This document shows positions 41,042-57,002 of a stretch of 64,000 nt of DNA, in pieces. The DNA lies in the NCBI RefSeq assembly GCF_001571325.1, contig NZ_BCTO01000052.1, forward strand, positions 1 through 64,000, written 5' to 3'. A program made the translations under genes and the position numbers. Under the pieces are notes generated by a model. The model was not told where the DNA came from, ran no database searches, and saw only the letters and a list, made by a program, of their open reading frames with translations. The number at the start of each line of letters is the position of its first letter. Position 1 is the stretch's first letter. Source of the DNA: Delftia tsuruhatensis NBRC 16741. Lineage in GTDB: Bacteria > Pseudomonadota > Gammaproteobacteria > Burkholderiales > Burkholderiaceae_C.

Positions 41042-41893
41042 TCAGCGCAGCAGGGCCAGAACGCCCTGGGGCAGTTGGTTGGCCTGGGCCACCATCGCCG
41101 TGCCAGCTTGCTGCAGGATCTGCGAGCGGCTCAGGTTGGCGGTTTCCGAAGCGAAGTCGGCATCCATGATGCGGCTGCGGGCAGAAGCGGTGTTCTCAGC
41201 TGCCACTTGCAGGTTCGAGACCACGGCCTCGAAGCGGTTCTGGGTGGCACCCAGCACGGCGCGCTCGGAGTTGACCGTATCCAGAGCCGTGTCCAGGTTG
41301 CTGATCACGGTAGCCAGGGCAGTAGCGTCCAGAGCCGTGGTGGCGTTGGAGCCGATCGAGGCGCTGGTGATGCCGGTGATGTCGGTGTTCGTACCCAGAT
41401 TGCTCGTGGTGACGGTGATCGAGTCGTTGGCCGAAGTGTTGGCGCCCACTTGGAAGTTGATGGCGCCAGCATCGGTGCTCAGGATCTTCTTGCCGTTGAA
41501 ATCAGCGCCCTTGATCACGCGGTCGATTTCCTTGCCCAGCTCGACGAATTCCTTGTTCAGCGAAACCTGGTCCTTGGCGCCGTTGGTGCCGTTACGGGCC
41601 TGCACAGCCAGTTCACGCATACGCTGCAGAGCGTCGGTCACCTTGGACAGGGCGCCTTCAGCGGTCTGGGCCATCGACACGCCGTCGTTGGCGTTGCGCA
41701 CTGCCACGTTCATGCCGCGGACCTGGGCGTTCATGCGTTCTGCGATGGCCAGGCCGGCTGCGTCATCCTTGGCGCTGTTGACGCGCAGGCCGGAGGACAG
41801 GCGCTGCATGGTGGTGGACAGCGAGCTTTGCGAAGTAGCCAGGTTGCGCTGGGCGTTCAGCGATTGCACGTTGGTGTTGATAGACATGGCCAT
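41042..41893 (-). CDS. fliC: Flagellin (copy with its own sigma-28 promoter)
   Basis: A 283-residue flagellin with conserved ends (NTNVQSLNAQRNLATSQSSL; RSRIMDADFASETANLSRSQ) and a Thr/Ser/Asn-rich central part (TTSNLGTNTDITGITSASIG) that offers many hydroxyl side chains for O-glycosylation. It differs from the other copy mainly in this centre and in small changes elsewhere. AGGAG stands eight bases upstream of the ATG at 41893. A clear sigma-28 promoter lies about 160-185 bases upstream, giving a leader of about 150 bases. It is probably the main filament subunit. Confidence 0.96.
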   Translation of the reverse strand: MAMSINTNVQSLNAQRNLATSQSSLSTTMQRLSSGLRVNSAKDDAAGLAIAERMNAQVRGMNVAVRNANDGVSMAQTAEGALSKVTDALQRMRELAVQARNGTNGAKDQVSLNKEFVELGKEIDRVIKGADFNGKKILSTDAGAINFQVGANTSANDSITVTTSNLGTNTDITGITSASIGSNATTALDATALATVISNLDTALDTVNSERAVLGATQNRFEAVVSNLQVAAENTASARSRIMDADFASETANLSRSQILQQAGTAMVAQANQLPQGVLALLR

Positions 41894-42141: not shown

Positions 42142-44946
42142 TTACAAAACGGGGGCCACAGGAGCGGCCAGACCCAGATCCTCATAGGAGACACGCAGAT
42201 CCACAGGCTCCTGTCCCTGGCACCAGCGGGCCCAGGCCTGGCGCATCCCCATCGCCACCGAGCGCGCCACGATGTCCGCCTGTTGCGGTTCCTGGTCCTG
42301 CAGGCGTGCACGCAGCCCCTGGCGTATCTGCTGCAGCTGCGGCAAATGTGCCTGCCAGAACGCAGCCTGGTCCAGCAGTTGCGCCAGGTCCCGTGCTGCA
42401 AAGCCCTGGTCCAGGCCGACACGAGCCATCACTTCGGCCGACTGCCGCCCCGCCAGCAGCTCCCCCATCAGTGTCAGCGTGGGCACGCCCATCCACAGGG
42501 CGTGGTTGGTGACCACTCCGCCGGTGAAGGGCAGAGTATCCAGGCAGATATCTATGTCATGGTGCGCCTGCAGATAGTGCTCGAATCCCATCTGCTCCAC
42601 AAAATCGACGCGCTGCGCGGCCACGCCCTCCTCGGCCAGCCAGTCGCGCAGGTGCTGCGGAGGACCGGAACGGGGGCAGGCCGCGATCTTCAGCCTCGCC
42701 GTGGGCAGTGCACGCAGCACCTCACCCCAGACAGAAACCACCTGGCGGTTGATCTTGGACAGGCGGTTGAAGGAGCCGAACGTCAGATGGCCGTTGCGCA
42801 GCGCCGGCAGTGGCGCCACGGCCTCCTGGTGGATGCCGCCGTCGAAGACGTAGGCCAAAGGAACACGCATCAGCCGTTCGGTCAGCTGGGTCTTGAGCAG
42901 CTCGTCCTCCAGGATCAGGTCGCTGAGCACGATGTAGTCCATGCTTTCCAGGCCTGTGCTGCCCGGGTTGCCTATCCAGGTCATCTGCAGCGGCGCGGGC
43001 TTTGCGGCAAACAGATCCAGCCGGTGACCACGCGTATGGCCACTGAGATCGATCAGGATATCGATGCCGTCGGCCCGAACCAGGTTGGACAGCGACTGCA
43101 CATTCATGTCCTTGATGCCGCGCCACAGCTGGAACAGGCCCTGGAATTCCTTGGTGACCTCATCGTGAATTTCGTTGTTGCAATAGGCAACGCACACCAG
43201 GTCGCCATGCCGGGACAGCTCGCGCATCACCGGCAGGAAGAACTTGGCCGCCGCATGCGCGCGAAGATCACCGGACACGAAGCCCACACGCAATGTCTTG
43301 CCGCGGTCACGGGCGTTCTCATGCCCCATGCCCCGCTGCCCCTCGGAATGCCGCCGCATGAGCGCACCATATTCGCGGTTGGCCCGCCCCACCGAGGCTG
43401 CACTGGCCTCAGGCGAATGGATCATGGCGAACAGGCGCGCGCTATAGGCGGGCTCGTAGTCCGGGTGCAGCCTGACCAGTTCATCCAGCTGGCGCATGTG
43501 GCGCAGGGCATCGCCGCAGCGGTCCCAGTAGGCGGCGCGCTGGAACATCAGCTCCCGGTCACCGGGAAGGCGTTCCAGCGCTTCGGTCAAGGCCCGGTCG
43601 AGCCGGAGCAGGTCACGCGTTTCCAGCAATACCTGGCAGCGCAGCATGTGCGCGCGGGCATTGTCAGGCTGGATGCGCAGCGCCTCTTCGAGCAGTTCCA
43701 GCGCCTGCTCCCATTTCTTCTGGGCAAACAGCGTGAAGGCCGTCTCGCAGTGGAGCACGGCATTGTCGGGGCGCAATTGGAGCGCCTTGCGCAAGCAGGT
43801 TTCAGCCTCTCCCAGCCGTCCTCCGGAGCACAGCAGCAACGCCAGATGCAGCAGCAGCTCCAGACTCTCAGGCTCGATCTGCAGCGCCATGCGATAGGCA
43901 GTTTCCGCCTGCAGCTCCCAGCCAGCCTCGCCCAGCACATGGGCGCTGGCCAGGCACAAACGCAGGTCCTCGGGCCGCTGCTGCATGAGCAGCACCAGGA
44001 ACTGCGCACATTCCTGCAGCCGTCCGGTTTTCTGCAGCGCGGCCGTCAGCCGCGACAGTGTGTCCACATCCTCCGGGTCGAGCAGCAGCGCATTCACATA
44101 GCAGGGCAGGCTGTCCTCGATACAGCCCTGGGCGCACAGCGCATCGCCCAGATGCGAGAAGGCCTGGGTCCAATGCGGCCGCAGCGCCAACGCCGCACGC
44201 ATCGCACGCTCGGCCTCGGCTGCGTGGCCTGCCTGCAGGCAGATGCCGCCCAGGTTGAACTGCACCTCGGCATCGCGCGGCAGCAGAACGGCTGCCTGGC
44301 GCGCTGCCTGCAGGGCCGCCTCGATGCGGCCGTTCGCATGATCGGCTGCCGCCTTGAACTTCCAGACCAAGCCGCTCTTGGGATACTGGCGCACCAGCGA
44401 ACCCGCCAGCTGGCTGACCTCGGCATGCTCGCGCTGGGCAAACAGCTGCCCCAGCAGCCGCAGCTGCGCCTCGGGCACCCGACCACGGCCATCGCCAGCA
44501 ACCGGCGCCGCCTCGGGCTGCGCCGGCCCCAGTGGCCAGCGCGCGGCCTGCACCTCCAGGAACGCAGCTGCCTGCGCGCCCTGCACCAGGGCCACATCCT
44601 TTTCCAGCTGTTCCAGCGCAATCTCCTGCATGCCGTTGGCCCGTGCCACGTCGATCAGCGAGATGGCCATGTCCAGCAGCCCCTCGCGGATCAGCATGTG
44701 GATGTACAGGCGCCAGTAGCCAAAATCCGCAGGCCGCACGCCGATGGCTGCCTCCAGATAGGGCAGTGCCTCGGCACTGCGCAGCTGGTGCAGACCCAGC
44801 AGCTGGGCCATGCCGTGCAGCGCCTCGGCATGGGCAGGCTCCTGCTCCAGCACCTTTTCATAGGCCTGGCGAGCCTGCTCGAACTGCCACTGTTCATGCA
44901 ACTGGCGGGCCTGCTGCAAATGCTCGTTCGTATTCATCTTGGTCAT
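42142..44946 (-). CDS. Large TPR / SPINDLY-type O-linked glycosyltransferase
   Basis: A 934-residue protein related to eukaryotic O-GlcNAc transferase (glycosyltransferase family 41). The N-terminal half (about 1-500) is a string of TPR-like helical repeats (ARQAYEKVLEQEPAHAEALH, AAEAERAMRAALALRPHWTQ). The C-terminal half has the family blocks LIDLSGHTRGHRLDLFAAKP, LQMTWIGNPGSTGLESMDYI, LTFGSFNRLSKI and LPFTGGVVTNHALWMGVPTL. It probably glycosylates flagellin Ser/Thr in the cytoplasm before export. The start at 44946 (MTKMNTNEHL) or 44937 is uncertain because neither has a clear ribosome site. It is encoded just upstream of the flagellin genes on the same strand. Confidence 0.9.
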   Translation of the reverse strand: MTKMNTNEHLQQARQLHEQWQFEQARQAYEKVLEQEPAHAEALHGMAQLLGLHQLRSAEALPYLEAAIGVRPADFGYWRLYIHMLIREGLLDMAISLIDVARANGMQEIALEQLEKDVALVQGAQAAAFLEVQAARWPLGPAQPEAAPVAGDGRGRVPEAQLRLLGQLFAQREHAEVSQLAGSLVRQYPKSGLVWKFKAAADHANGRIEAALQAARQAAVLLPRDAEVQFNLGGICLQAGHAAEAERAMRAALALRPHWTQAFSHLGDALCAQGCIEDSLPCYVNALLLDPEDVDTLSRLTAALQKTGRLQECAQFLVLLMQQRPEDLRLCLASAHVLGEAGWELQAETAYRMALQIEPESLELLLHLALLLCSGGRLGEAETCLRKALQLRPDNAVLHCETAFTLFAQKKWEQALELLEEALRIQPDNARAHMLRCQVLLETRDLLRLDRALTEALERLPGDRELMFQRAAYWDRCGDALRHMRQLDELVRLHPDYEPAYSARLFAMIHSPEASAASVGRANREYGALMRRHSEGQRGMGHENARDRGKTLRVGFVSGDLRAHAAAKFFLPVMRELSRHGDLVCVAYCNNEIHDEVTKEFQGLFQLWRGIKDMNVQSLSNLVRADGIDILIDLSGHTRGHRLDLFAAKPAPLQMTWIGNPGSTGLESMDYIVLSDLILEDELLKTQLTERLMRVPLAYVFDGGIHQEAVAPLPALRNGHLTFGSFNRLSKINRQVVSVWGEVLRALPTARLKIAACPRSGPPQHLRDWLAEEGVAAQRVDFVEQMGFEHYLQAHHDIDICLDTLPFTGGVVTNHALWMGVPTLTLMGELLAGRQSAEVMARVGLDQGFAARDLAQLLDQAAFWQAHLPQLQQIRQGLRARLQDQEPQQADIVARSVAMGMRQAWARWCQGQEPVDLRVSYEDLGLAAPVAPVL

Positions 44947-45283
44947 CAAGGTTGCGGGCAAGCGCCCCAACACAGGCCCGGCGCCCAGGCCGACACCCGC
45001 ACAAATACCGCCATCGTGCAGGCAAGCCGGCAGGCACGGCCCCCGGATAAGCGGGAACAAACCGCGTTTCTTTGACTTTTACCAGGCGGCCCGGCCACCG
45101 CCCAGGGAGCCGTGTGCCATCATCTCCGGGATTCGCTAGGACAGCGTCACCCCGCACAGCATCGGAACAGGACTCGCTTTCGCCTACAGTTTCACCCTTC
45201 CAGCGCAGAGGCTCTCTGCGAAAATTCATCGAAGCGTCTGCCCTCATAGACGAGCGCGTAGCCCTTTTTCAGGAACCCATCTC
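44947..45283. other. Divergent intergenic region at the left end of the sugar island
   Basis: A 337-base gap between the large glycosyltransferase (-) and the acyl carrier gene (+). No open frame here looks like a gene. Promoters for both directions are expected, but no strong sigma-70 or sigma-28 pattern is seen. AGGAA nine bases before 45284 is a modest ribosome site. Confidence 0.5.
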
Positions 45284-45508
45284 ATGCCCTCCATTGACCA
45301 ATTCATCGAAAGCTTTCTGACCGCCGTAGACTTCCAGGAAACCGTCGAAGTGACCCCCGAAACCGAGCTCCGGAGCCTGCCCGAGTGGGACTCCCTGGCT
45401 GCGCTGGGCGTGATCGTCATGTTCGATGTCGAATTCGGCAAGACCATCACCGGGGACGACCTCAAGAACTGCTCGACGATCACCGACCTCTACAAGCTGC
45501 TGGGATAA
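45284..45508 (+). CDS. Acyl carrier protein
   Basis: A 74-residue acidic protein with the phosphopantetheine site EWDSLAALG (Ser37) and four-helix ACP pattern. It is not the housekeeping AcpP: it lacks the usual DSLDTVE motif and sits with a dedicated ketosynthase and reductase. It probably carries a short acyl chain used to decorate a sugar. First gene of the plus-strand island operon, four bases before the ketosynthase gene. Confidence 0.93.
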   Translation: MPSIDQFIESFLTAVDFQETVEVTPETELRSLPEWDSLAALGVIVMFDVEFGKTITGDDLKNCSTITDLYKLLG

Positions 45509-45512
45509 CACC

Positions 45513-46550
45513 ATGGCGCTGTCCACTCTGCACAACGTCCGCTTTGCGGGCATGTCCAGTTGCGTTCCCAAGCGGGTGATCTCCAATCTGGAGGATTGCC
45601 CACCATCGCAACGCTCCGAGCGTGAAAGGCTGGTGCGCAACATCGGTATAAAGACGCGGCGCATCTGCCCGGAATGGCAGTGCTTTTCGGACCTAGCCTT
45701 TGCTGCCACAGAAAAGTTGCTGGCCGAACTGCAGTGGCAGCGCAACGAAATCGATGCTCTGATCGTCGTTACACAGTCTCCCGACTATCTGATTCCATCC
45801 ACCGCAATCATTCTTCAGGACAGGCTGGGATTGCCACACGGAACGATTGCTTTTGATGTAAATCTGGGCTGTTCGGGTTATCCGTTCGGGCTACACCTCC
45901 TGGGTAGCATGATTGCAGCAGGTGGAGTGAAGAAGGGATTGCTGCTGGTGGGCGATAAATCGGCCAACATCAATGATCCACTCTTCTCAGATGCAGGAAC
46001 CGCGACAGCGCTAGAGTTCTCGGCCGATGCATCTCCCATGCACTTTGACCTCAATAGTGACGGCAGCGGCTACAAGGCCATCATGAAGCCTATTGGGGGG
46101 CATAGGGAACCGTACGCTATACATCATGGCATTCCAACCCGCGATGAACATGGAATTCTCCATTGGCCCAATGATTTATCTCTGGATGGACCAGCAGTTC
46201 TGAGCTTCTCGACACAAAGAGTGCCACCTGCCATACAGCAAATCCTCGAATATGCCAAGCTTGAAAAGAATAATATTGATTATTACATTTTTCACCAAGC
46301 TAATAGAATGATAAATGAGACCATCAGAAAAAAACTGGGACTTACTATCGAGCAAACTCCAAGCACTTTGCATGATTTTGGCAACACTAGCAGTGCGACT
46401 TTACCGATAACAATTACGGCGCGACTTCGCGATACACTTGCGCAAGACCGGCACAAAATACTTCTCTCCGGATTTGGAATTGGCCTTTCATGGGGAGCCT
46501 GCATTATGGATATCGATGGCGCTTGTCTTCCTGAGTTGATCGAAGAATAA
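45513..46550 (+). CDS. 3-oxoacyl-ACP synthase III-like ketosynthase (FabH family)
   Basis: A 345-residue condensing enzyme. The Cys-His-Asn triad is visible: Cys120 in [12 protein letters not shown], His261 in [10 protein letters not shown], and Asn291 in [11 protein letters not shown]. FabH-type enzymes start chains by joining acetyl-CoA or another acyl-CoA to malonyl-ACP, so with the neighbouring ACP and reductase it can make a 3-oxo, then 3-hydroxy, short acyl-ACP. The ATG at 45513 has GGGA seven bases upstream. The 3' half (about 46230-46550) is notably A+T-rich compared with its neighbours, a sign of transfer. Confidence 0.93.
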
Positions 46551-46555
46551 TCCTC

Positions 46556-47320
46556 ATGAACCACGAGACTTCCACTCCCTTTCACCTGCATGGCCGCCGC
46601 ATCATCGTGACGGGCGCAACTTCTGGCTTGGGCCTTGCTACGGCCTTAGCTTGCGCACGCATGGGTGCCCAGGTGCTGGGGATAGGACGAGATCCAGAGC
46701 GTCTGGCCAGCAGCCTGCAGCAGTTGAAATCCATATCGGATAAGACCCATGAAATGCTGCATACGGACCTCACCCTGGAAAGGGATCGGGAAAGATTGGT
46801 CGCACATATTGGAGGCCCGGTGCATGGAGTAGTGCACAGCGCCGGAATCTCTCGCCTGAGTCCCGTACGCATGATATCGGAGCAGCACCTCAGAGAAGTC
46901 CAAGCCATCAATGTCGATGCCCCAATGCTCCTGACGCAGGCTCTACTCAAACGAAACCTCATAAGCGCAGATGGTTCATTGGTTTTTCTCTCATCAATTG
47001 CGGCTCATATAGGGGTTCCAGGAGTAGCGGCATACTCAGGTACAAAGGCTGCACTAATAGCAATGGTGCGCTGCTTGGCCATGGAGGTTGTCAAGCGACG
47101 AATACGGGCAAATTGCTTGTCTCCAGCATTAGTTGAGACACCACTGCTGGAGGCGACAGCAACCTTAGTAGGATCCATGGAAAAAGAGCGAGGCAACTAC
47201 CCTCTCGGATTTGGCAAACCAGAGGATGTCGCCAACGCCGCAGTTTTTCTATTATCGGATGCCAGCCGCTGGATAACTGGCACTACCTTGGTCATGGATG
47301 GCGGACTGACCGTCAGTTGA
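46556..47320 (+). CDS. FabG-like short-chain dehydrogenase/reductase
   Basis: A 254-residue SDR. NAD(P)-binding motif [11 protein letters not shown] (19-29), catalytic Ser147 in FLSSIAA, Tyr160 and Lys164 in [10 protein letters not shown], and the C-terminal [12 protein letters not shown] of the FabG group. It is the likely 3-oxoacyl-ACP reductase of the ACP-ketosynthase set just upstream (5-base gap). Acting on a sugar instead cannot be excluded. Confidence 0.9.
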
Positions 47321-47426
47321 CGTGGCTTGCTTTTTAGTAGGGGGCTGCGCGAGATTCCTGAGATCTAGGCCTGCGGCGATGCGGCAACGCCTCCGAAGAA
47401 TATGACAGAACCTCTTGATTGCTGAC

Positions 47427-48587
47427 ATGAGCCTTTACGCCCATCTGATCGAATCTTTTGCCCGCTCCGGGGAGCCGGAGTCTCCCGCTCTGTTGAGCGA
47501 CCGACCCTTGGTGGTGTTCGGTCCCCAGTCGTTGCTGGGGAACATGCATCTGAGGTACTTGCTGGACCAGGGAGCATCCATCATCCTCGGCGTGGACGAC
47601 TACACCAGCAAGGAATCCGTGGAAGGAATCCCCATCGTCAAATCCGCCCAGCTTGTCGAACGGGCAGGAAGCTTTCCGGCCAATACCCTGATGGTGGACT
47701 TCAGCCTCAGCCTCTTTGCCAACGGCTTTTGCCGGCATCTGGCCCGCCACGCCAGGCTTGAGCTGAGGGATGTATTCCAGGTACTGGCCTGCTTCAACTC
47801 CGTGGCGGTCTACGAAAAAATCAGGGACTACCGGAGCAACACCCTGGCACGCGCCGACGACTGGCTGAAGCTGGCACAACGCCTGGGGGACGATCACAGC
47901 CGGGAAACGCTTTATGGCGTGCTGCTGCAGCGCCTCGAATACGATCGGCGCTGGATGAACGACATTCGCATCAGTCCCAGGGATGAGTATTTCGGACTGG
48001 CGGGTGATAGCAACACCTTCACCCTGGGCAACAGGGAGCACTTCGTGGACTGCGGCGCACACCGTGGCACGATACTGCACAAGCTGTTCGGCGTCACAGG
48101 CTGGAACTATGCCAGCCTGCATGCCTTTGAACCGGATGCCGAGAATTTCCAGGCCCTGCAGCAACTGGCACCCTGGAAGCTTGAGCAATTCCACGCCCAC
48201 AACTATGCCGTCTCGGACCAGACCCAGACCCTGCGCTTTCACCAGACAGGCACCATGGGTAGCCATATTTCAGATCAGGGCGATGTCAGCATACGTTGCG
48301 TGACCGTGGACGACTGGGTGGAGCGCGCCACCTTCATGAAATTCGATGTGGAAGGCTTCGAAGCGCGCGCGCTGCGGGGCTCAAAGAGACTGCTGACCGA
48401 AAACCGGCCGCGCCTCGCCGTGGCGTCCTACCATTACGCCACCGACTTGCTGGATATTGCCCAGACCATCGATGAGCTGGCCCCGGGTTATACCTTCTTC
48501 CTGCGCCATCATGCCGGCTATTTCTACGACACCATGCTGTACGCGACACCGCGCGGCGATTGGTTGCCAGGCACCGATGCAGCCTAG
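47427..48587 (+). CDS. FkbM-family methyltransferase with N-terminal Rossmann-like domain
   Basis: A 386-residue protein. The C-terminal half is an FkbM (Methyltransf_21) AdoMet methyltransferase: FVDCGAHRGTILHKLFG (Asp208), LHAFEPDAENF, and MKFDVEGFEARALRGS. FkbM enzymes usually O-methylate sugars or polyketides. The first 110 or so residues (PLVVFGPQSLLGNMHLRYLL, then GVDDYTSKESVEGIPIV) resemble the nucleotide-sugar or PglD/NeuD-type Rossmann head. The ATG at 47427 is used; an in-frame TTG four codons earlier is less likely. A 106-base gap separates it from the SDR gene. Confidence 0.85.
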   Translation: MSLYAHLIESFARSGEPESPALLSDRPLVVFGPQSLLGNMHLRYLLDQGASIILGVDDYTSKESVEGIPIVKSAQLVERAGSFPANTLMVDFSLSLFANGFCRHLARHARLELRDVFQVLACFNSVAVYEKIRDYRSNTLARADDWLKLAQRLGDDHSRETLYGVLLQRLEYDRRWMNDIRISPRDEYFGLAGDSNTFTLGNREHFVDCGAHRGTILHKLFGVTGWNYASLHAFEPDAENFQALQQLAPWKLEQFHAHNYAVSDQTQTLRFHQTGTMGSHISDQGDVSIRCVTVDDWVERATFMKFDVEGFEARALRGSKRLLTENRPRLAVASYHYATDLLDIAQTIDELAPGYTFFLRHHAGYFYDTMLYATPRGDWLPGTDAA

Positions 48588-48681
48588 CAAGAGAGAGGAG
48601 GAGGGTGCAAACCTTGCCTCAAAGTGCCTCTTGCTGGCTCCTGACGCCTCAAGTACTGGCTGCATTTTTCTTGAAGATTCC

Positions 48682-49821
48682 ATGTCCACTCAATCCATCC
48701 CACTGGCGGCCTACCGTGACCCGAGTCAACATGCTTTCGAGCAGGGCCAGCTGTTTCAAAAAAACTGGCTGTTTGCTGGCCTGCTTTTCGAATTCCAGGG
48801 GCTCTCCCACCGTGGCCTGAGCCTGGGCGGCACAAGTCTACTGCTGCAATGCGATGCCCAGGGCAAGCCACATGCTTTTCTGAATGTGTGCGCCCATCGC
48901 CATGCCCGGCTGTGCGAGCCCGGACTGCACAAGGGCGCCGTGCGCTGCCCTTACCATGGCTGGGTTTACGACAGGCAAGGTGTCCCTGTGGGAATACCTG
49001 CCAAACAGGCATTTCCCCAAGTGGTTGCCGAGCCCGAGAAATTCAAGCTGACCGAGTTTGCCTGCGAAGCCGTGGGCCAGTTCATTTTTGTACGGCTTTC
49101 CCCTCAAGGTCCCAGCCTGCGGGACTATCTGGGCAGCCAGTATGATTTTCTGGAACGCGCCAGTGAAGGTATGGACTCCGTGCTCGATGAATTCCAGGAG
49201 GACGTTGAGGCGAACTGGAAAGTCGTGATCGAAAACTCCCTTGAGGGCTATCACGTGCCGGCCGTACACAACCGCACGTTCGCCCAGGTCGATGGAATGA
49301 GCCGGCAAGAAGAAGCGCCCCTCTTCTTTCTGAATGACCGCCTGCACAGCCATCTCGAGCACGCTGCCAATGCTGAGTGGGTGGCACGCTTTTCACGCAT
49401 GGAGCCCAGGATTGGTCAGTGGCCTTGGCGCTTCGAACACTATACCCATCATCTGATTTTTCCAAATCTCACAGTCACCTCTTTCATGGGATACAGCTTC
49501 CACGTACAACGTTTCGATCCCCTTGCCGTGGATCGCACGCGTGTGCATTCACGAACCGTGGGCGTGCATTTGAAGAATGGCACCGAAATGGGCTCGAAGA
49601 TGATGGAACGCATCCATGCCGATGGCCACGCCTTTACGCGTAAAGTATTTGCAGAGGACGGTGATATCTGTCGCAAGGTGCAGGCGGGAATCAGCCAAGC
49701 CACACGCCCCGCCATTCTGGGAGAAGGCATTGAAGATCGCGTCAAGCATTTTCACAATGCCTACGTCAGCCAGACCGAATCTGGATGCCTCCCAGAGTCC
49801 ACTCCGATTTGCGGCCATTGA
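48682..49821 (+). CDS. Rieske non-heme iron oxygenase, large subunit
   Basis: A 379-residue protein with an N-terminal Rieske [2Fe-2S] domain (Cys70, His72, Cys89, His92 in NVCAH...RCPYHGW) and a catalytic domain with [13 protein letters not shown], which supplies iron ligands His191 and His196. Family members hydroxylate, demethylate or N-oxygenate small molecules using electrons from a reductase. No reductase is encoded nearby. Its position directly before the CDP-sugar genes suggests that it oxidises the sugar or its substituent. The ATG at 48682 gives the usual N-terminal length; the ribosome site is weak. Confidence 0.88.
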
Positions 49822-49835
49822 GGCATCGCCCTACC

Positions 49836-50609
49836 ATGAAGGCAGTGATTTTAGCGGGGGGCCTGGGCACACGCCTGAGCGAAGAAACGACGACACGGCC
49901 GAAGCCCATGGTGGAAGTGGGTGGAAAGCCGATTCTCTGGCATATCATGAAAATATATTCCCACCACGGAATCAATGATTTCATCATATGCTGCGGATAC
50001 AAGGGGTATCAGATCAAGGAGTATTTCGCCAACTACTTCCTGCACATGTCTGATGTCACCTTTGACATGCGAAACAACGAAATGCAGGTGCACCAGCAAC
50101 GGGTGGAGCCCTGGCGCGTGACCCTTGTGGACACGGGCGACCACACCATGACCGGGGGCCGTCTGCTGCGTGTCGCTGCCCATTTGAAAGACGAAGAGGC
50201 GTTTTGCATGACCTATGGCGATGGCGTCGGGGACATCGACATCGCCGCGTCCATCGCTTTCCACCGCCGGCACGGCAAGGTGGCGACCATGACGGCCACC
50301 TATCCTCCCGGGCGGTTTGGTGCCGTCGCCATTCAGGCTTCCCGGGTCACACAATTCAAGGAAAAGCCCAAGGGAGACGGCGGCTTGATCAACGGCGGCT
50401 TTTTCGTACTGTCGCCCCGCGTGCTGGACCTGCTGGACAATGATCAAACGGTGTGGGAACAGGCACCCTTGACGCAATTGGCAGAGCAAGGGGATCTGAT
50501 GGCATTCGAGCACGAAGGCTTCTGGCAACCCATGGACACCCTGCGTGACAAGCAAAAGCTGGAAGAATTGTGGGAACACGGGCAGGCTCCGTGGAAGATC
50601 TGGGAATAG
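49836..50609 (+). CDS. rfbF: Glucose-1-phosphate cytidylyltransferase
   Basis: Makes CDP-glucose from CTP and glucose 1-phosphate, the first step to CDP-linked 3,6-dideoxyhexoses. The nucleotidyltransferase motif [19 protein letters not shown] is present, followed by [20 protein letters not shown] and the metal-binding [13 protein letters not shown]. It is 257 residues, normal. The start at 49836 is the canonical MKAVILAGG. First of four consecutive CDP-sugar genes. Confidence 0.95.
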
Positions 50610-50615
50610 CGCTCC

Positions 50616-51674
50616 ATGACCCCCTCTTCAAGTTTCTGGCATGGCAAACGTGTGTTTCTGACAGGGCACACGGGCTTCAAGGGCAGCTGGCTCGGCCTCT
50701 GGCTGCACCACCTCGGCGCGATGGTCCACGGCTATGCCCTGGCGCCAGACACACAGCCCAACCTGTTCACACGAGCGGGCATCGCCCGCAGGCTGACGGA
50801 TACCCGGGGCGACATCCGGGACTATGGAACACTGAGCTCGGCCCTGGAAAATTTCCAACCCGACATCGTCATCCACATGGCAGCGCAGGCCTTGGTTCGG
50901 CCGTCCTACGACGACCCGGTGCAAACCTATTCCACCAACGTCATGGGGACCGTGCACCTGCTGGAGGCCGCCCGCAAGATCGACTGCGTCCGTGCCGTGG
51001 TCAACGTGACCTCCGACAAGTGCTACGAGAACCAGGAATGGGACTGGGGCTACCGGGAAATCGACCCCCTGGGAGGCCGCGACCCCTACAGCAACAGCAA
51101 GGGCTGTGCCGAGCTGGTTACCCATGCCTTCCGCCAATCGTTCTATGAACAGCGCGGCATAGGCCTGGCCACGGCCAGGGCAGGCAATGTCATCGGCGGT
51201 GGTGACTGGTCTGCCGACAGGCTATTGCCCGATATTTTGCGTTCGCTGGAAAAAGGCCTGCCCCCCCTCATCCGCTCCCCGGGAGCCATACGCCCATGGC
51301 AACATGTGCTGGAGCCTTTGTCGGGGTATCTCTGCCTTGCGCAAAAGCTGTACGAAGAAGGCGCCGCCTTCTCGCAGGCATGGAATTTCGGCCCACTGGA
51401 CGAAGGGGCCAGGAACGTGCGCTGGATCACGGAAAAGCTAATGGCACTCTGGGGCGAAGACATCGACTGGAACTGCGATGCGGTGACAGGCCCCCATGAA
51501 GCCAATGTGCTGAAACTCGATATTTCCAAATCCGTCCAACACCTGCAATGGCGGCCGCGCTGGCAACTCGACCAGGCGCTGGCCAAGACGGTTGAATGGC
51601 ATCGCGCCTGGGTCAGCGGCGCCAACGCCTGCGAACTGGTGATGTCCCAGATCGAATCCTATACCTCGGAATGA
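50616..51674 (+). CDS. rfbG: CDP-glucose 4,6-dehydratase
   Basis: Converts CDP-glucose to CDP-4-keto-6-deoxyglucose. An extended SDR with the NAD motif [16 protein letters not shown], the catalytic pair in [12 protein letters not shown] (Tyr and Lys), and [10 protein letters not shown]. It is 352 residues, typical. It follows rfbF by six bases and precedes rfbH by one. Confidence 0.95.
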
Positions 51675-51675
51675 T

Positions 51676-53031
51676 ATGAACTCATCGACCTCCTCGCCGC
51701 AGGCGTCCTGCCGGACGCCCGAGGAAATCCGGCAAGACATTCTGGAACTGGTCCAGGAATACTCCAGCCTGGTTCATGCGCCCCAGCCCTTTCTTGCGGG
51801 ACTGTCTCCCGTGCCCGTTTCGGGCAAGGTCATTGGTGCCCCGGAACTGCAGAACATGGTGTCGGCCAGCCTGGATGGCTGGCTGACAACGGGACGATTC
51901 AATGCGGAATTTGAAAGCCGCATGGCCAGCTACCTGGGCGTCAAGCACTTTCTGACCGTCAATTCCGGATCCTCGGCCAACTTGGTTGCCTTCTCCTCCC
52001 TGACGTCCCCTAAGCTGGGCTCCAGGGCCATACAGCCCGGCGATGAAGTCATTACCGTCGCCGCTGGATTCCCCACCACGGTCAACCCCATTCTTCAGTC
52101 CGGCGCAGTACCTGTCTTCGTCGATGTGGACATCCCCACCTACAACATCGATGCCGCCGCCATAGAAGCGGCAATTTCCCCCAAGACCAAGGCCATCATG
52201 ATTGCCCATACGCTGGGCAACACCTTCGACCTCGAAGCCGTGGTGGCGATATGCAAAAAGCATGGCCTCTGGCTTGTCGAAGACTGCTGCGATGCGCTTG
52301 GCAGCACCTACGACGGCAAGCTGGTGGGGACGTTTGGCGACATCGCCACCCTGAGCTTTTATCCGGCACACCACATCACCATGGGCGAAGGCGGTGCCGT
52401 CTTCACCAATAATCCCAAGCTCAAGCGGGCCGCAGAGTCCTTCAGGGACTGGGGCCGGGATTGTTATTGCCCTCCCGGCCATGACAACACCTGCAACAAG
52501 CGTTTTTGCCGCCAAATGGGCGAGCTTCCCGGGGGATACGACCACAAGTACATTTATAGCCATCTGGGCTACAATCTGAAGATCACAGACATGCAGGCAG
52601 CATGCGGCCTGGCACAGATGGACAGGTTGCCGGGTTTCATCGCTGCCCGAAAGCACAACTTCCAGCAGCTCACGAAGCGCCTGAAGCATCTAGAGGAATT
52701 TCTCATTCTTCCCGAGCCAACGCCCCGCTCGGACCCCTCCTGGTTCGGCTTTCCCATCACCTTGAAAGAAAATACGGGATTCAGCCGTCTCGATCTGCTG
52801 AACCATCTTGAGCGGCACCGCATCGGCACACGGCTGCTGTTTGCCGGCAACCTGCTCAAGCAGCCGTACATGGAGGGCCGCACCTATCGCGTCAGCGGTG
52901 ACCTGGCAAATACCGATCGCATCATGCACCAGACTTTCTGGATCGGTGTCTATCCAGGACTTGGCACAAACCATCTGGAGTACATTGCCAGCCGCTTCGA
53001 TGCATTTTTCAGCACAACGAAGCCAGCCTAG
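51676..53031 (+). CDS. rfbH: CDP-4-keto-6-deoxyglucose-3-dehydrase (E1)
   Basis: A PMP-dependent [2Fe-2S] enzyme that removes the C3 hydroxyl of the CDP-sugar. The usual PLP lysine is replaced by His232 in [14 protein letters not shown], the hallmark of this dehydrase. The iron-sulfur ligand pattern C-X57-C-X-C-X7-C is fully kept: Cys205, Cys263, Cys265 and Cys273. It is 451 residues. The family needs an NADH-dependent ferredoxin-like reductase (RfbI/AscD/DdhD) to finish the deoxygenation; no such gene is in the window. Confidence 0.95.
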
Positions 53032-53034
53032 CCC

Positions 53035-53922
53035 ATGCGGATCCTCATCACAGGTGCCAGCGGCTTTCTGGGCCAGCATGTGTGCTCGGCGCTTTTGCAG
53101 AAAGGCCATACGCTCACCGTGGCCCTGCGCACCGAAATACTTCCTGAACCCTTGCGGCAACTGCAGGCACGGTATCCGCTGTCGCTGCATATGGTGCTCT
53201 ATGGGCAGTGCCTGGACCTGGAAGGACAGGATGGCATCATCCATATGGCCACCCAGTATGGCCGGTCGGCCTGCTCACGCACTTCGGACATCATCGCGTC
53301 CAATGTGCTCTTGCCAGCACGACTGCTGGAGGACGCCATTGCCCAGGGCCTGCAGTTTTTCATCAATACCGATACCTACTACGCCAAGGCTGGCCCGGGA
53401 CACCTGCTGCAGAACTACATCCGCAGCAAGGCCCATTTCCGGGAATGGGCCGACGTCATGGCAGGGACTCGCATACGGCTCATCCACATGCGCCTGGAGC
53501 ATCTCTACGGCCCCGGTGATGCCATGGAGAAGTTCTGCACTGCCCTGACACGCAACTGCCTGAACCATCTTCCCCGGATTGCCTTGACCAGCGGCCAGCA
53601 GATGCGGGACTTTCTCTTTGTCGAGGATGCCGCGCAGGCGTATGCCTGCCTGCTAAAGGGCCTACCAGAGCTTGCCAGGGGTTGCCACAGCGTGGAGGTG
53701 GGTACAGGCCAGGCGATTGCCCTCAGGGATTTCTGTCGGGAGCTCCATGCCGCGACGGACTCCACCAGCGTTCTGGGTTTTGGCGATATTGCGCTTGTCC
53801 AGGGAGAAATAGGCTTCTCGGTCGCGCGGCCGGGGCTGCTGCAGACACTGGGTTGGCACAGCACCACCCGCCTGCAGGATGGCATTGCGGCGCTGATTGC
53901 CGACGTGCGCAGCCGCATGTAG
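53035..53922 (+). CDS. NAD-dependent sugar epimerase/reductase, CDP-abequose/paratose synthase-like
   Basis: A 295-residue extended SDR with ITGASGFLGQHV at the N-terminus and catalytic Tyr128 and Lys132 in NYIRSKAHF. It is the last gene of the CDP-sugar set, where Salmonella and Yersinia place the 4-keto reductase that makes CDP-abequose or CDP-paratose. Which stereoisomer it makes cannot be read from sequence. It ends 13 bases before the stop of the convergent glycosyltransferase gene. Confidence 0.85.
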   Translation: MRILITGASGFLGQHVCSALLQKGHTLTVALRTEILPEPLRQLQARYPLSLHMVLYGQCLDLEGQDGIIHMATQYGRSACSRTSDIIASNVLLPARLLEDAIAQGLQFFINTDTYYAKAGPGHLLQNYIRSKAHFREWADVMAGTRIRLIHMRLEHLYGPGDAMEKFCTALTRNCLNHLPRIALTSGQQMRDFLFVEDAAQAYACLLKGLPELARGCHSVEVGTGQAIALRDFCRELHAATDSTSVLGFGDIALVQGEIGFSVARPGLLQTLGWHSTTRLQDGIAALIADVRSRM

Positions 53923-53935
53923 CAGACCTCACCAC

Positions 53936-55042
53936 TCACACCACCTGCAGGGTATTGCGAGGATAGGTGCGCCGGTCCAGATTTTCCTTGATCAAGATCA
54001 CACCCAGTTGGTCATTAATGCTTCGCTCAGACTGCGCATCATCCTGCACATGGCTGCGAATCCTGGACAACAGGGCATGCATCTCCTCATTACCGTAGGC
54101 AGCATATGCTTCCTGAAAAATATCCCACTCTTCTTCCAGGATGGGCTGACGAGTCCTGACCCTGTCCCATTGGTTGCTGAGCATGCAAACAGCCAACGAG
54201 TGAATCTTGAGATGAACAAGTTTCTTATTGGAAAAAATCAGGTCTCTGATACTCAAAATTTCATGCCAAGATCCCATTCCATATTTCTGGAGATGCTGAA
54301 AACACTGTAGCATGATGATCGTCACGGACTTTAGCCCCCCTGCAGAATAAGGCAAAATATTGTCCATTCTGTATTTCGTCACCGGCTTCTTCTTTAGATA
54401 CTTGCAAGGAATATCATGAAAGGCCTGGAGCACGCAAAATGAAAAAGAATGAGGCGAATGCAAGTAATCAATCTCATTGACCGCTCTGAATTTTTCCTTC
54501 CGAAACACACAGGAGCCCAGATAAACAAAGTAGTACCCCCAGCCTAGCGCATGGACGGCCTGTAGCAAGGATGAAAAATAAATCTCATCCTCGGGATAAT
54601 TGCCGTGTGTAATAACACATCGACGACTCAAATCTGGTGTCCATGAGTCGCGAGCCACCAAGAAAATTTCGGGGGATTCCTGTCTGATGTGGCCCAATAT
54701 GAACGACAACGCGCCTTGCTCCAGAGCATCGTCATCGCCCAGCGTCCAGAGATAGTCCCCCCGGCCAAAGTGCTTTGCAGCCAGAATGCTTTCCTCCATG
54801 GGAACGCTGTGCGGACGGCGTACATAGGAGATAAACGGATAGGCAGCACACATATCTTCCATGAGAAGACAGGTGACATCGTCCAAGCCATTGTCCACAA
54901 CAACCACTTCAAATTCCGCCTGCAGCTCTGGCTCCAACCGTGCCTGCTCAATAATGGAATCCAGCATTCCCCTCAGGTACCGAGCTCTATGATAAGTTGG
55001 TATGACAATAGAAAGTAAAGGATCTTGTAAAACGGACATCAT
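53936..55042 (-). CDS. Family 2 glycosyltransferase, abequosyltransferase-like
   Basis: A 368-residue inverting transferase. The GT-A start LSIVIPTYHRARYLRGMLDS, the nucleotide-binding VVVDNGLDD, and the metal site WTLGDDDALEQGALSF are clear. The length and layout recall RfbV-type transferases that add 3,6-dideoxyhexoses. No membrane segment is obvious. It is A+T-richer than its neighbours. It follows the acyltransferase gene with no gap. It probably adds the CDP-linked sugar to the growing glycan. Confidence 0.85.
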   Translation of the reverse strand: MMSVLQDPLLSIVIPTYHRARYLRGMLDSIIEQARLEPELQAEFEVVVVDNGLDDVTCLLMEDMCAAYPFISYVRRPHSVPMEESILAAKHFGRGDYLWTLGDDDALEQGALSFILGHIRQESPEIFLVARDSWTPDLSRRCVITHGNYPEDEIYFSSLLQAVHALGWGYYFVYLGSCVFRKEKFRAVNEIDYLHSPHSFSFCVLQAFHDIPCKYLKKKPVTKYRMDNILPYSAGGLKSVTIIMLQCFQHLQKYGMGSWHEILSIRDLIFSNKKLVHLKIHSLAVCMLSNQWDRVRTRQPILEEEWDIFQEAYAAYGNEEMHALLSRIRSHVQDDAQSERSINDQLGVILIKENLDRRTYPRNTLQVV

Positions 55043-55744
55043 TCAGCCCCAACAAAAGCGTTTGGCAGGATTTCCCATAACGGTAATGCCTGCCGGTATT
55101 TTCCCGAACACCACACTGCCTGCAGCCACCACGACTCCATCGCCTATGACGGCCTTGGCCGTGATGATGCTGCCAGGGTGAATTTGCACACCTTCACCGA
55201 TCCTGGCATTGCCAGCTACCATGCAATGCGCACCTATCGACGTCCAGTCTCCCACGCTTACATCATGGGCAATTGCAGTGAAATTACTGACCGTCACGAA
55301 ATGCCCCAACCGAGCATTTGGCGACAGGGTGGCATGGGGCGCCAGAATGCACCCAGGTGCTATGGATGAATGGGCAGACGGCGCAGCCAACTCATGAACA
55401 AGGCGGATGAACTGTCCGCCTTGGCGCAATATATTTTCGGTGTATTTTCTTCGCTGTACCGGATCGCCCAGCGCGCAGACAAAAAGATCGTCTGACTGCA
55501 CCTCGTAAGTGAGCGGATCGCCGGCAATACCATGGTTCATTGCGTATCTGGCGCGCGTTTGCTCGGATGCAGGTGCTGGATAGGGCAATGATTCATAGCT
55601 CGCAGAAAATTCATTGAGAATTTCTTTTCGGCTATCGAGAAAACCGGCAATCATCCACTCACACTGATAGCCATAACTTTCTATGGCCAATGTCAAGACT
55701 TCCCTGCCAAATCCACCGGCTCCGATGATGAACAATCTTTTCAT
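55043..55744 (-). CDS. NeuD/PglD-like sugar acyltransferase
   Basis: A 233-residue protein with an N-terminal Rossmann head (KRLFIIGAGGFGREVLTLAI) and a C-terminal left-handed beta-helix of hexapeptide repeats (NARLGHFVTVSNFTAIAHDV, IGEGVQIHPGSIITAKAVIG). PglD-type enzymes N-acetylate UDP-4-amino sugars; NeuD-type enzymes O-acetylate. Here an acyl-ACP donor from the neighbouring operon is possible. The upstream aminotransferase suggests amino-sugar N-acylation. Confidence 0.85.
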   Translation of the reverse strand: MKRLFIIGAGGFGREVLTLAIESYGYQCEWMIAGFLDSRKEILNEFSASYESLPYPAPASEQTRARYAMNHGIAGDPLTYEVQSDDLFVCALGDPVQRRKYTENILRQGGQFIRLVHELAAPSAHSSIAPGCILAPHATLSPNARLGHFVTVSNFTAIAHDVSVGDWTSIGAHCMVAGNARIGEGVQIHPGSIITAKAVIGDGVVVAAGSVVFGKIPAGITVMGNPAKRFCWG

Positions 55745-55838: not shown

Positions 55839-57002
55839 TCAGGCCCTGCTTGCCTTGACGGCCGCAGATACAGCCAGCTTCAAACGCCCGCGCTGCATCG
55901 CCTCCATCCCCAGAAAAAATGGCAAGCCGACCAGCGTGCTGGCCAAACGGTCCGCATGGGGTGTCTCCAATGCCTGGCAATGGGGCAGCAAGGCCTGCAT
56001 ATGCTGCAGCAGCGGCTGGTACCAGCGCCGCGTTGTGATATGCATCTGCTGGCAGGTCTGTTCAAGTGCCCTGCGCGTGCCATCGTCAGGAAGTTGGGCG
56101 CACAGCAGCGAGGGAGCAGCCAATGCGCCTCCCGCACCCAGACGCTGCCAGACCAGGGAATGTCCACTGGCTTCATCGAGTTCCTCCATCAGGCACGCAT
56201 GCAGCCTGCGCCTTTCCAGGGCATGCTCCTCCCACACCTGCAGCGAGGCCAGGCCGATGGCAGCATGGTATTCGCTCATCTTGGCATTGGTCCCCACTCT
56301 GGCCAGCGAGCCCAGGGGCATGCCGGCCTTTGGGTCCAGGTTGATGCCGAAATTCGAGAGCTGGCGTACTCGCGCGGCCAAGCCAGTCCGGGTGGAGACA
56401 ACCAGGCCGCCCTCGCCCGCCGGCAGGCTCTTGGTGGTGTGCAGACTGAAGACCAGGGTGCCCTCGGCGCCCTGCAGCCACTGGCTGCCATAGGCCGCAG
56501 CTGCGTCTATGACCACGGGAAGTCCGGTGTCCTGCTCGAATTGCTGCCAGGCTTTCATGTCGTGGGGCATACCGAAGGTGGCCACCGGCAGCACGGCGTC
56601 CACAGGCGTCACAGCGCAGGCGGCCCGCGCAATGTCGGGAGTGAGCATCCAGTCATCGGGGTCCACGTCAGCCAGTACGGGCAGATGACCGGCACGCACC
56701 ACGGCTGTGGCCGTAGCGACGAAGGTAAAGGCCGGCAGCAAGATGCGCGACCCCGGCGCCAGCTCCAGCGCCTGCAGCACCAGCTCCAAGCCCTGCGTGG
56801 CGTTGGAGACCGTGGTCAGATTGTCCACCGGCAGGGCAAACCGCTGCGCGAATTCCGACTCCAGCTCCCGGACCAGGGGGCCATAGTTCGAATAGTGCCG
56901 CGCCGCATGCATGCGTTCCAGCCAAGGCATCAGCTCCTGGGGCGAGGGCATATCGGGCACCAGCAGGGGCACCCACTCTGACGAGGCGCAAGAGTCGCTC
57001 AT
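55839..57002 (-). CDS. DegT/DnrJ/EryC1/StrS-family sugar aminotransferase
   Basis: A 387-residue PLP enzyme that aminates keto-sugars. Lys191 in FSLHTTKSLPAGEGG is the PLP lysine, and VIDAAAAYGS carries the cofactor-binding Asp. Substrate could be CDP-4-keto-6-deoxyglucose, its 3-deoxy product, or a dTDP- or UDP-keto sugar made elsewhere. It overlaps the end of the second SPINDLY-type transferase by four bases (ATGA), so the two are translationally coupled. Confidence 0.88.
   Translation of the reverse strand: MSDSCASSEWVPLLVPDMPSPQELMPWLERMHAARHYSNYGPLVRELESEFAQRFALPVDNLTTVSNATQGLELVLQALELAPGSRILLPAFTFVATATAVVRAGHLPVLADVDPDDWMLTPDIARAACAVTPVDAVLPVATFGMPHDMKAWQQFEQDTGLPVVIDAAAAYGSQWLQGAEGTLVFSLHTTKSLPAGEGGLVVSTRTGLAARVRQLSNFGINLDPKAGMPLGSLARVGTNAKMSEYHAAIGLASLQVWEEHALERRRLHACLMEELDEASGHSLVWQRLGAGGALAAPSLLCAQLPDDGTRRALEQTCQQMHITTRRWYQPLLQHMQALLPHCQALETPHADRLASTLVGLPFFLGMEAMQRGRLKLAVSAAVKASRA

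Follow-up and report, generated by a model that had tools for sequence, protein, structure and literature searches.

A Rieske oxygenase in a flagellin-glycosylation locus of Delftia tsuruhatensis belongs to a clade that accompanies acyl-decoration genes

What does a Rieske non-heme iron oxygenase (RO), a type of enzyme best known from the degradation of aromatics, oxidize when its gene lies among genes for sugars and flagellin? The question is raised by a 64,000-nucleotide stretch of DNA from Delftia tsuruhatensis NBRC 16741, hereafter the window, in which one unbroken frame of 379 amino acids occupies positions 48682-49821 of the plus strand. Its product matches the Pfam families Rieske (PF00355; 55.0 bits versus a cut-off of 20.3) and Ring_hydroxyl_A (PF00848; 82.9 versus 24.9 bits), and a Pfam scan at an E value of 0.001 revealed no other domain. 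An earlier note on this DNA had reported an intact RO with specific metal ligands at these positions, and its residue numbers are exact: the Rieske cluster ligands of the CxH...CxxH pattern (C70, H72, C89 and H92) and the iron ligands H191 and H196 are invariant in an alignment of 59 sequences. D326, conserved in at least 90% of the same sequences, is by its position the probable third ligand of the 2-His-1-carboxylate iron site. Many dioxygenases carry Asp at the position that bridges their subunits. We take E188, which is invariant among the 19 nearest relatives, to occupy this inter-subunit bridging position, where the carnitine monooxygenase CntA has Glu. H222 and H256 are likewise invariant in that 19-sequence alignment.

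Judged by the predicted functions of the neighboring genes, the setting of the RO is a flagellin-glycosylation locus. The plus-strand row contains an acyl carrier protein (ACP; 45284-45508, 74 amino acids; PF00550, 25.0 bits, cut-off 20.8) whose WDSL motif holds the phosphopantetheine serine S37, a VioS/FabH-like ketoacyl synthase III (KASIII; 45513-46550; PF08541/PF08545, over their cut-offs) and a FabG/VioR-like short-chain reductase (SDR; 46556-47320; PF13561/PF00106, FabG-like in NCBIfam but under the equivalog cut-offs). Next come an FkbM-family methyltransferase (47427-48587; PF05050; TIGR01444, 72 bits, cut-off 37.7; query from 47415) and the RO, followed by rfbF (glucose-1-phosphate cytidylyltransferase, 49836-50609; TIGR02623, 477 bits, cut-off 300; query from 49839), rfbG (CDP-glucose 4,6-dehydratase, 50616-51674; TIGR02622, 497 bits, cut-off 278), rfbH (CDP-4-keto-6-deoxyglucose 3-dehydratase, 51676-53031; NF011936, 755 bits, cut-off 423) and an NAD-dependent epimerase/reductase-like SDR (53035-53922; PF01370, 95.5 bits; no NCBIfam equivalog reached) that probably performs the last CDP-sugar step. 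The gaps between these genes are, in order, 4, 5, 106, 94, 14, 6, 1 and 3 bases: the first two separate the adjacent acyl genes at 45284-47320, the 94 bases lie between the FkbM gene and the RO start, and the 14 bases lie between the RO end and the rfbF start at 49836. The earlier note had thus placed the RO correctly after the FkbM gene and before rfbF, although it gave the latter spacing as 15 bases. The ACP gene had been absent from its account. Because this gene directly precedes that for KASIII, it is an acyl module that opens the plus-strand row, ahead of the rfb genes.

Catalytic residues of the acyl module are well conserved. C120, H261 and N291 of KASIII, presumably its catalytic triad by analogy with FabH, are kept in no fewer than 95% of the 28 frames collected, as are S37 of the ACP in at least 95% of 27 and Y160 and K164 of the SDR in at least 95% of 40, with the window's own frame counted in each case. 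On the minus strand beyond the row lie a family 2 glycosyltransferase (GT2; 53936-55042; PF00535), a NeuD/PglB/VioB-type sugar N-acyltransferase (55043-55744; PF17836 and PF00132; TIGR03570, 144.9 bits, under the cut-off of 160.8), a DegT/DnrJ aminotransferase (55839-57002; PF01041, 213.6 bits) and an OGT/SPINDLY-like GT41 TPR glycosyltransferase (56999-58660; PF13844, 159.4 bits). The NeuD-type gene is thus on the opposite strand to the RO and 5.2 kb away. The aminotransferase probably produces a 4-amino-4,6-dideoxy sugar; its best NCBIfam match is DesI (154 bits, cut-off 650), and it reaches no equivalog cut-off. Upstream of the row are a second, different GT41 TPR glycosyltransferase (42142-45060, minus strand; PF13844, 121.5 bits), so that two such genes flank the locus, and beside it two flagellin genes (41042-41893 and 39881 to approximately 40756, minus strand) and fliD; motA, motB, cheY, cheZ and flhB lie downstream, and all of these flagellar and motility genes were named by eye from the sequence. 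Homologues of the flagellin genes adjoin related gene sets in other genomes as well.

A scan for promoters and terminators returned counts near the means of shuffled sequences (5 versus 4.0 and 6 versus 8.5). The terminator-like sites of the plus strand all lie inside genes and none was found between the genes of 45284-53922, which weakly supports a single transcript. The rfbFGH genes would make a second, CDP-linked sugar, probably on a transcript shared with the acyl genes, and this sugar need not be the substrate of the RO.

The fold of the protein does not point to a particular substrate. An AlphaFold model (mean pLDDT 93.4) aligns with solved ROs over nearly its full length, with Z scores of up to 35.1 in VIA-align. 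The top matches are CntA (35.1), terephthalate dioxygenase (35.0) and stachydrine demethylase (34.7), all at 17-23% identity, and the top families found by Foldseek are the same. Identity to solved structures is at most 23% among the 50 entries listed, and the RO is therefore without a close solved relative. A guess at the substrate from the fold was dropped, since the top Z values are tied across these three enzymes.

A search for the RO itself at an E value of 1e-40 in 200 genomes of the family returned only its own genome, and a search of 399 genomes of the order at 1e-25 added one further member of the RO clade described below (genome G313). This sampling was too sparse for a test of co-occurrence, and so we used a design that starts from KASIII and is blind to the RO, covering 200 family, 399 order and 398 phylum genomes. 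A KASIII of at least 50% identity was found in ten distinct genomes besides the window's own, and all ten loci were fetched. An RO was recovered by profile (E of at most 1e-72) in 9 of the 9 informative loci, the low ends of the RO and KASIII frames being 2.99-4.34 kb apart; the tenth locus (L110) ends at NeuD and was counted as uninformative. In those nine the RO gene adjoins that for NeuD or is one gene off, and an ACP gene directly precedes KASIII in 9 of 9. With weaker KASIII matches (33-42% identity, nine genomes), the RO was present in three of the six loci fetched (L112, L121 and L124) and was not found by profile in the others (L113, L122 and L123).

We also built a tree of 89 ROs kept from 128 frames. 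The 39 dropped frames were all labeled as non-cassette, and every one has a retained row to which its identity is 50% or more. For 38 of them the retained rows are non-cassette ones, whereas the remaining frame, from Azospirillum thermophilum (L125), shares 82% identity with a cassette row in the tree. The KASIII of that RO is 13 kb away, versus the 9 kb within which the cassette label was given. In A. thermophilum (L133, 5490-9894), the KASIII/SDR/GNAT set is found near a gene for another kind of oxygenase, annotated as phytanoyl-CoA dioxygenase family, with the RO approximately 13 kb off. In the tree, all 45 cassette ROs, from 37 loci, fall into one split together with the RO of L011, which carries no cassette label, and an RO from Nostoc (L018). 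This split has support of 100/99, and of 98 in a quick tree. The cassette label changes twice on the tree versus a mean of 29.7 changes when labels are shuffled, and none of 500 shuffles gave a count as low.

Outside the clade are BenA (L128) and both other ROs of the Delftia genome, namely an AndAc-like enzyme (L108) and a third RO (L106). The phylogenetic comparison with aromatic degraders that the earlier note had proposed as a check therefore separates the window RO from BenA and the AndAc-like enzyme, and the note's preference for a role in glycan biosynthesis over aromatic degradation agrees with this position and with the low identity to the solved entries listed. A match on a Xenorhabdus plasmid, within an NRPS cluster (L127), was rejected as a relative because it also falls outside the clade. 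Within the clade we distinguish the window's own type (20 rows), a second type (18 rows), a group with Burkholderia glumae and an Azospirillum/Nostoc/Rhodospirillales group. The first two of these types occur together in one island in L002, L005, L010, L015, L016 and L020, and two ROs adjoin a single acyl cassette in L120 (1010-3900), perhaps for successive oxidations. Where clade members occur in annotated records, they are labeled only as 'Rieske 2Fe-2S domain-containing protein' or 'SRPBCC family protein'.

Loci selected by the RO gave the same picture as those selected by KASIII. We fetched 79 loci from genome contigs, with ROs of 41-72% identity (L001-L017 and L020) down to approximately 30%, and 23 of these belong to the clade. 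KASIII is nearby in 21 of the 22 informative clade loci, lying within the locus in 18 and immediately beyond its end, at a distance of about 11.8 kb, in three from Paracidovorax; L011 is cut by a contig end and is uninformative, and no KASIII of this kind was found in the Nostoc genome. Outside the clade, KASIII is near the RO in 0 of 56 RO-selected loci. Among 35 tabulated cassette loci, which are of unequal length and in some cases cut, NeuD is present in 33, KASIII in 31, SDR in 31, ACP in 27, GT41 in 25, DegT (at least 27% identity) in 24, FkbM (at least 38% identity) in 14 and flagellin in 8. One cassette locus (L019) has no NeuD relative, and in two (L005 and L010) the RO gene sits between those for SDR and NeuD. 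Two loci from metagenome-assembled genomes (MAGs) titled 'Bordetella parapertussis' (L015) and 'Cryomorphaceae' (L012) carry cassettes like those of environmental Burkholderiales and are possibly misnamed or misbinned. These loci share descent, which means that the counts cannot be treated as independent trials. The constant partner of the RO is the acyl cassette, composed of ACP, KASIII, reductase and a NeuD/VioB-type acyltransferase.

The genes that surround this cassette vary. KASIII matches were found in 22 plasmid records, and the surroundings of five were examined. In B. glumae BGR1, plasmid pBGF3 carries, in order, fliC, fliD, fliT, a TPR protein, vioA, KASIII, ACP, SDR, an acetyltransferase and the Rieske protein; an unannotated second KASIII match lies between its ACP and SDR genes (L130, 20494-21508). 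Azospirillum brasilense Sp7 has a nucleotidyltransferase, a GNAT acyltransferase, an SDR, the RO (annotated SRPBCC), KASIII, a further SDR and pseG. With vioA in B. glumae, pseG in A. brasilense and rfbFGH in the window, the sugar genes differ and the acyl genes stay. The Nostoc RO (L018, 6461-11122) has a carbamoyltransferase gene on one side and an ABC exporter gene on the other, and is part of a polyketide/PUFA-synthase cluster of the PfaA/PfaB/PfaD type (PfaA/PfaB-like synthase; PfaD, 665.7 bits, cut-off 449). This is again a context of acyl-chain assembly, and no amino-sugar gene was found among the frames scanned there; the substrate of the Nostoc RO may be a long polyketide chain. A plasmid of Parabacteroides distasonis encodes an acetyltransferase, two carrier proteins, an AMP-binding enzyme, KASIII and SDR, and no RO was found by profile in the 14 kb around these genes that were searched. 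Parabacteroides is an anaerobe, and an RO-free cassette in this single case is as an oxygen-dependent step predicts.

The RO probably obtains its electrons from outside its operon. Among the operon proteins scanned with Pfam and NCBIfam we found no reductase, ferredoxin or ring-cleavage gene, and the genome has 22 Fer2 matches elsewhere, which makes a shared, unlinked reductase likely. Seven of these 22 proteins, used as queries, gave no match near clade ROs, and their sole match was at an RO locus outside the clade (L021). RfbH would likewise need a reductase, E3. The window carries rfbH (51676-53031) with no RfbI/E3 reductase gene in the operon, and none of the same seven Fer2 proteins reached an NCBIfam cut-off for RfbI. 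A 399-amino-acid protein with Fer2 and FNR domains on contig C35 (L087) may be the E3 for RfbH.

Taken together, these observations suggest that the RO acts as a monooxygenase on the N-acyl arm of a sugar destined for flagellin and is encoded as part of an acyl-decoration cassette, and we assign this reading a probability of about 0.62 on the genomic evidence. The location of the gene beside the acyl cassette, both here and in many relatives, makes the side chain, rather than the sugar, the most likely recipient of oxygen. We envision that ACP, KASIII and the FabG-like reductase would assemble a short 3-hydroxyacyl group, with 3-hydroxybutanoyl-ACP as the probable product, and that the NeuD/VioB-type enzyme would transfer it onto the amine of a 4-amino-4,6-dideoxy sugar nucleotide supplied by the DegT aminotransferase. 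Using electrons from an unlinked reductase, the RO would insert one oxygen atom at some position of the acyl arm, either on ACP or after transfer to the sugar. FkbM may then O-methylate a hydroxyl group, and a GT41 enzyme would presumably attach the finished sugar to flagellin; the order of all these steps is inferred. The earlier note had offered a nucleotide sugar, its acyl substituent or its methyl substituent as possible targets. The acyl option fits best with the presence of KASIII near 21 of 22 informative clade ROs, and the methyl option gains no specific support from FkbM relatives that occur in 14 of 35 cassette loci.

The alternative that survives best, though we regard it as unlikely, is that the RO acts on the amino sugar itself, at a ring carbon, the 6-deoxy carbon or the nitrogen, before or after acylation. 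Rieske N-oxygenases exist, as PrnD acts on an aryl amine, and oxidation of a nucleotide sugar would likewise place the RO in glycan islands, where a DegT relative is indeed near it in 24 of 35 cassette loci. However, this aminotransferase is a less constant partner than KASIII, SDR or NeuD, the type of sugar varies between loci, and the Nostoc RO resides in an acyl-chain cluster whose scanned frames include no amino-sugar gene.

It is improbable that the substrate is instead the CDP-sugar made by RfbFGH, with hydroxylation or oxidation of its ring or 6-deoxy methyl group. The RO gene is only 14 bases from rfbF in the window and adjoins rfbF in three Paracidovorax loci, where KASIII is the more distant gene at about 11.8 kb, and so a CDP-sugar substrate is conceivable in these four cases. 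Beyond them, the only rfbF we noted is 11.7 kb from the RO (L111), and none lies within 2 kb. A whole-genome search (E of at most 1e-100) of 20 genomes with close RO relatives, several of them MAGs that may be incomplete, found RfbH in five: the window's own, the three Paracidovorax and a Pseudorhodoferax (L005) in which RfbH is more than 10 kb from the RO on either side. RfbH was not found in isolates of Delftia, Paraburkholderia (two), Variovorax, Xylophilus and Polynucleobacter, and the ROs with which the window RO groups in the tree come from Delftia and Comamonas (the latter a MAG) genomes in which RfbH was not found either. The link to CDP-sugar genes is mostly local, and oxidation of CDP-sugars, as a general statement about these enzymes, is not supported.

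Another possibility accepts the acyl chain as the target but replaces hydroxylation with desaturation, oxidative cyclization or oxidative O-demethylation. ROs that catalyze such reactions are known, including RedG-type cyclases and DdmC-type demethylases, and the genomic evidence is the same as for hydroxylation of the acyl arm. We give this version little credence. A demethylase that undoes the work of FkbM is weakly disfavored in that 21 of 35 cassette loci have no FkbM relative of at least 38% identity, although some cassette loci carry other methyltransferases. Finally, that the RO is a degradative aromatic enzyme present in the island by chance is scarcely credible: ROs are common in this bacterial family and the genome has three PF00848 genes, the RO included, but several results stand against it. 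These are the 100/99 clade, the finding of an RO near KASIII in all 9 informative loci of the RO-blind search, the lack of reductase, ferredoxin and ring-cleavage genes among the scanned proteins of the operon, and the lack of any relative of seven of the genome's Fer2 reductases in the clade loci searched.

Oxidation of the N-acyl arm may be one case of a broader specialization. We tentatively consider that the whole clade could be dedicated to carrier-borne acyl groups, whether a short acyl chain on ACP or, in the case of Nostoc, a synthase-bound polyketide, and that its recruitment served to vary the sugar amides of flagellin and of further surface glycans. To our knowledge, acyl-S-ACP is not an established substrate class for Ring_hydroxyl_A enzymes, and it would be a new one if this proposal is true. 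ROs are often annotated as aromatic-ring dioxygenases, and a cassette-bound clade gives such genes a testable role in surface glycans, with a simple mass difference as the prediction. If the sugar is Qui4N with a 3-hydroxybutanoyl group, the calculated residue masses are 231.111 Da without oxidation, 247.106 Da after hydroxylation and 261.121 Da for the methyl ether of the hydroxylated form. These cassettes would add an oxygen-dependent layer to the diversity of flagellin glycans in Burkholderiales, Azospirillum and others. Flagellin glycans matter for plant immune recognition: Acidovorax avenae strains whose flagellins have the same sequence are reported to carry different glycans and to be recognized differently by rice (PMC8364246).

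Several known systems resemble parts of this arrangement. The alpha subunits of benzoate, anthranilate, biphenyl and naphthalene dioxygenases share the Rieske plus Ring_hydroxyl_A architecture and the metal ligands with the RO; for the biphenyl and naphthalene enzymes the comparison was one of fold, and BenA and the AndAc-like enzyme were placed in the tree. Assignment as a benzoate or anthranilate dioxygenase alpha subunit was rejected on NCBIfam scores (66.9 versus 780.95 and 64.9 versus 671.9 bits) and on exclusion from the 100/99 clade, and the scan of the operon proteins showed no beta-subunit gene. Like the RO, CntA and stachydrine demethylase (Stc2) consist of a stand-alone alpha subunit, and they resemble it in overall fold (Z of about 35, 17-20% identity), but their context is betaine catabolism whereas that of the RO is glycan and acyl genes. 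The best NCBIfam match, over the Rieske half, is to glycine betaine monooxygenase GbcA (NF058607) and scores 93 bits versus a cut-off of 670; assignment as GbcA was rejected on this score. Another parallel is CMAH, the CMP-Neu5Ac hydroxylase, a Rieske-type enzyme with a CMP-linked substrate. It combines a Rieske domain with a catalytic domain of its own and lacks Ring_hydroxyl_A, unlike the RO, which has both Pfam domains. Its conversion of Neu5Ac into Neu5Gc, as given in a passage of PMC8227644, is a precedent for the hydroxylation of an N-acyl group.

Among the titles and abstract openings of CC-licensed articles in PubMed Central, no on-topic publication on an RO in glycan or flagellin biosynthesis appeared, which leaves absence unproven. 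Excerpts of a survey of enterobacterial flagellin glycosylation islands mention ACP, FabG and FkbM genes, and the words 'Rieske' and 'oxygenase' do not occur in them (PMC4875605). The nearest system is the viosamine island of Pseudomonas syringae, composed of vioA, vioM, vioT, vioS, vioB, vioR and acp; in the portions of its description considered here, there is no oxygenase among these seven genes, and the word 'oxygenase' has no occurrence in the main text (PMC3927599). The same source holds that vioS (KASIII), vioR (reductase), acp and vioB make the N-(3-hydroxy-1-oxobutyl)-viosamine that caps flagellin glycans, that a vioR mutant lacks this residue and that in a vioM mutant each residue is 14 Da lighter (PMC3927599). 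By gene content, rather than by sequence, the window is alike in its ACP, KASIII, FabG-like reductase, VioB-type acyltransferase, aminotransferase and methyltransferase, and it differs in having GT41 genes in place of the VioT glycosyltransferase and in having the RO. The simplest reading of P. syringae-like acyl parts joined by an oxygenase is an oxidized version of that acyl group. Both the enzyme superfamily and the type of cassette are known; their combination is new, and the oxygenases that take part in it form a clade of their own.
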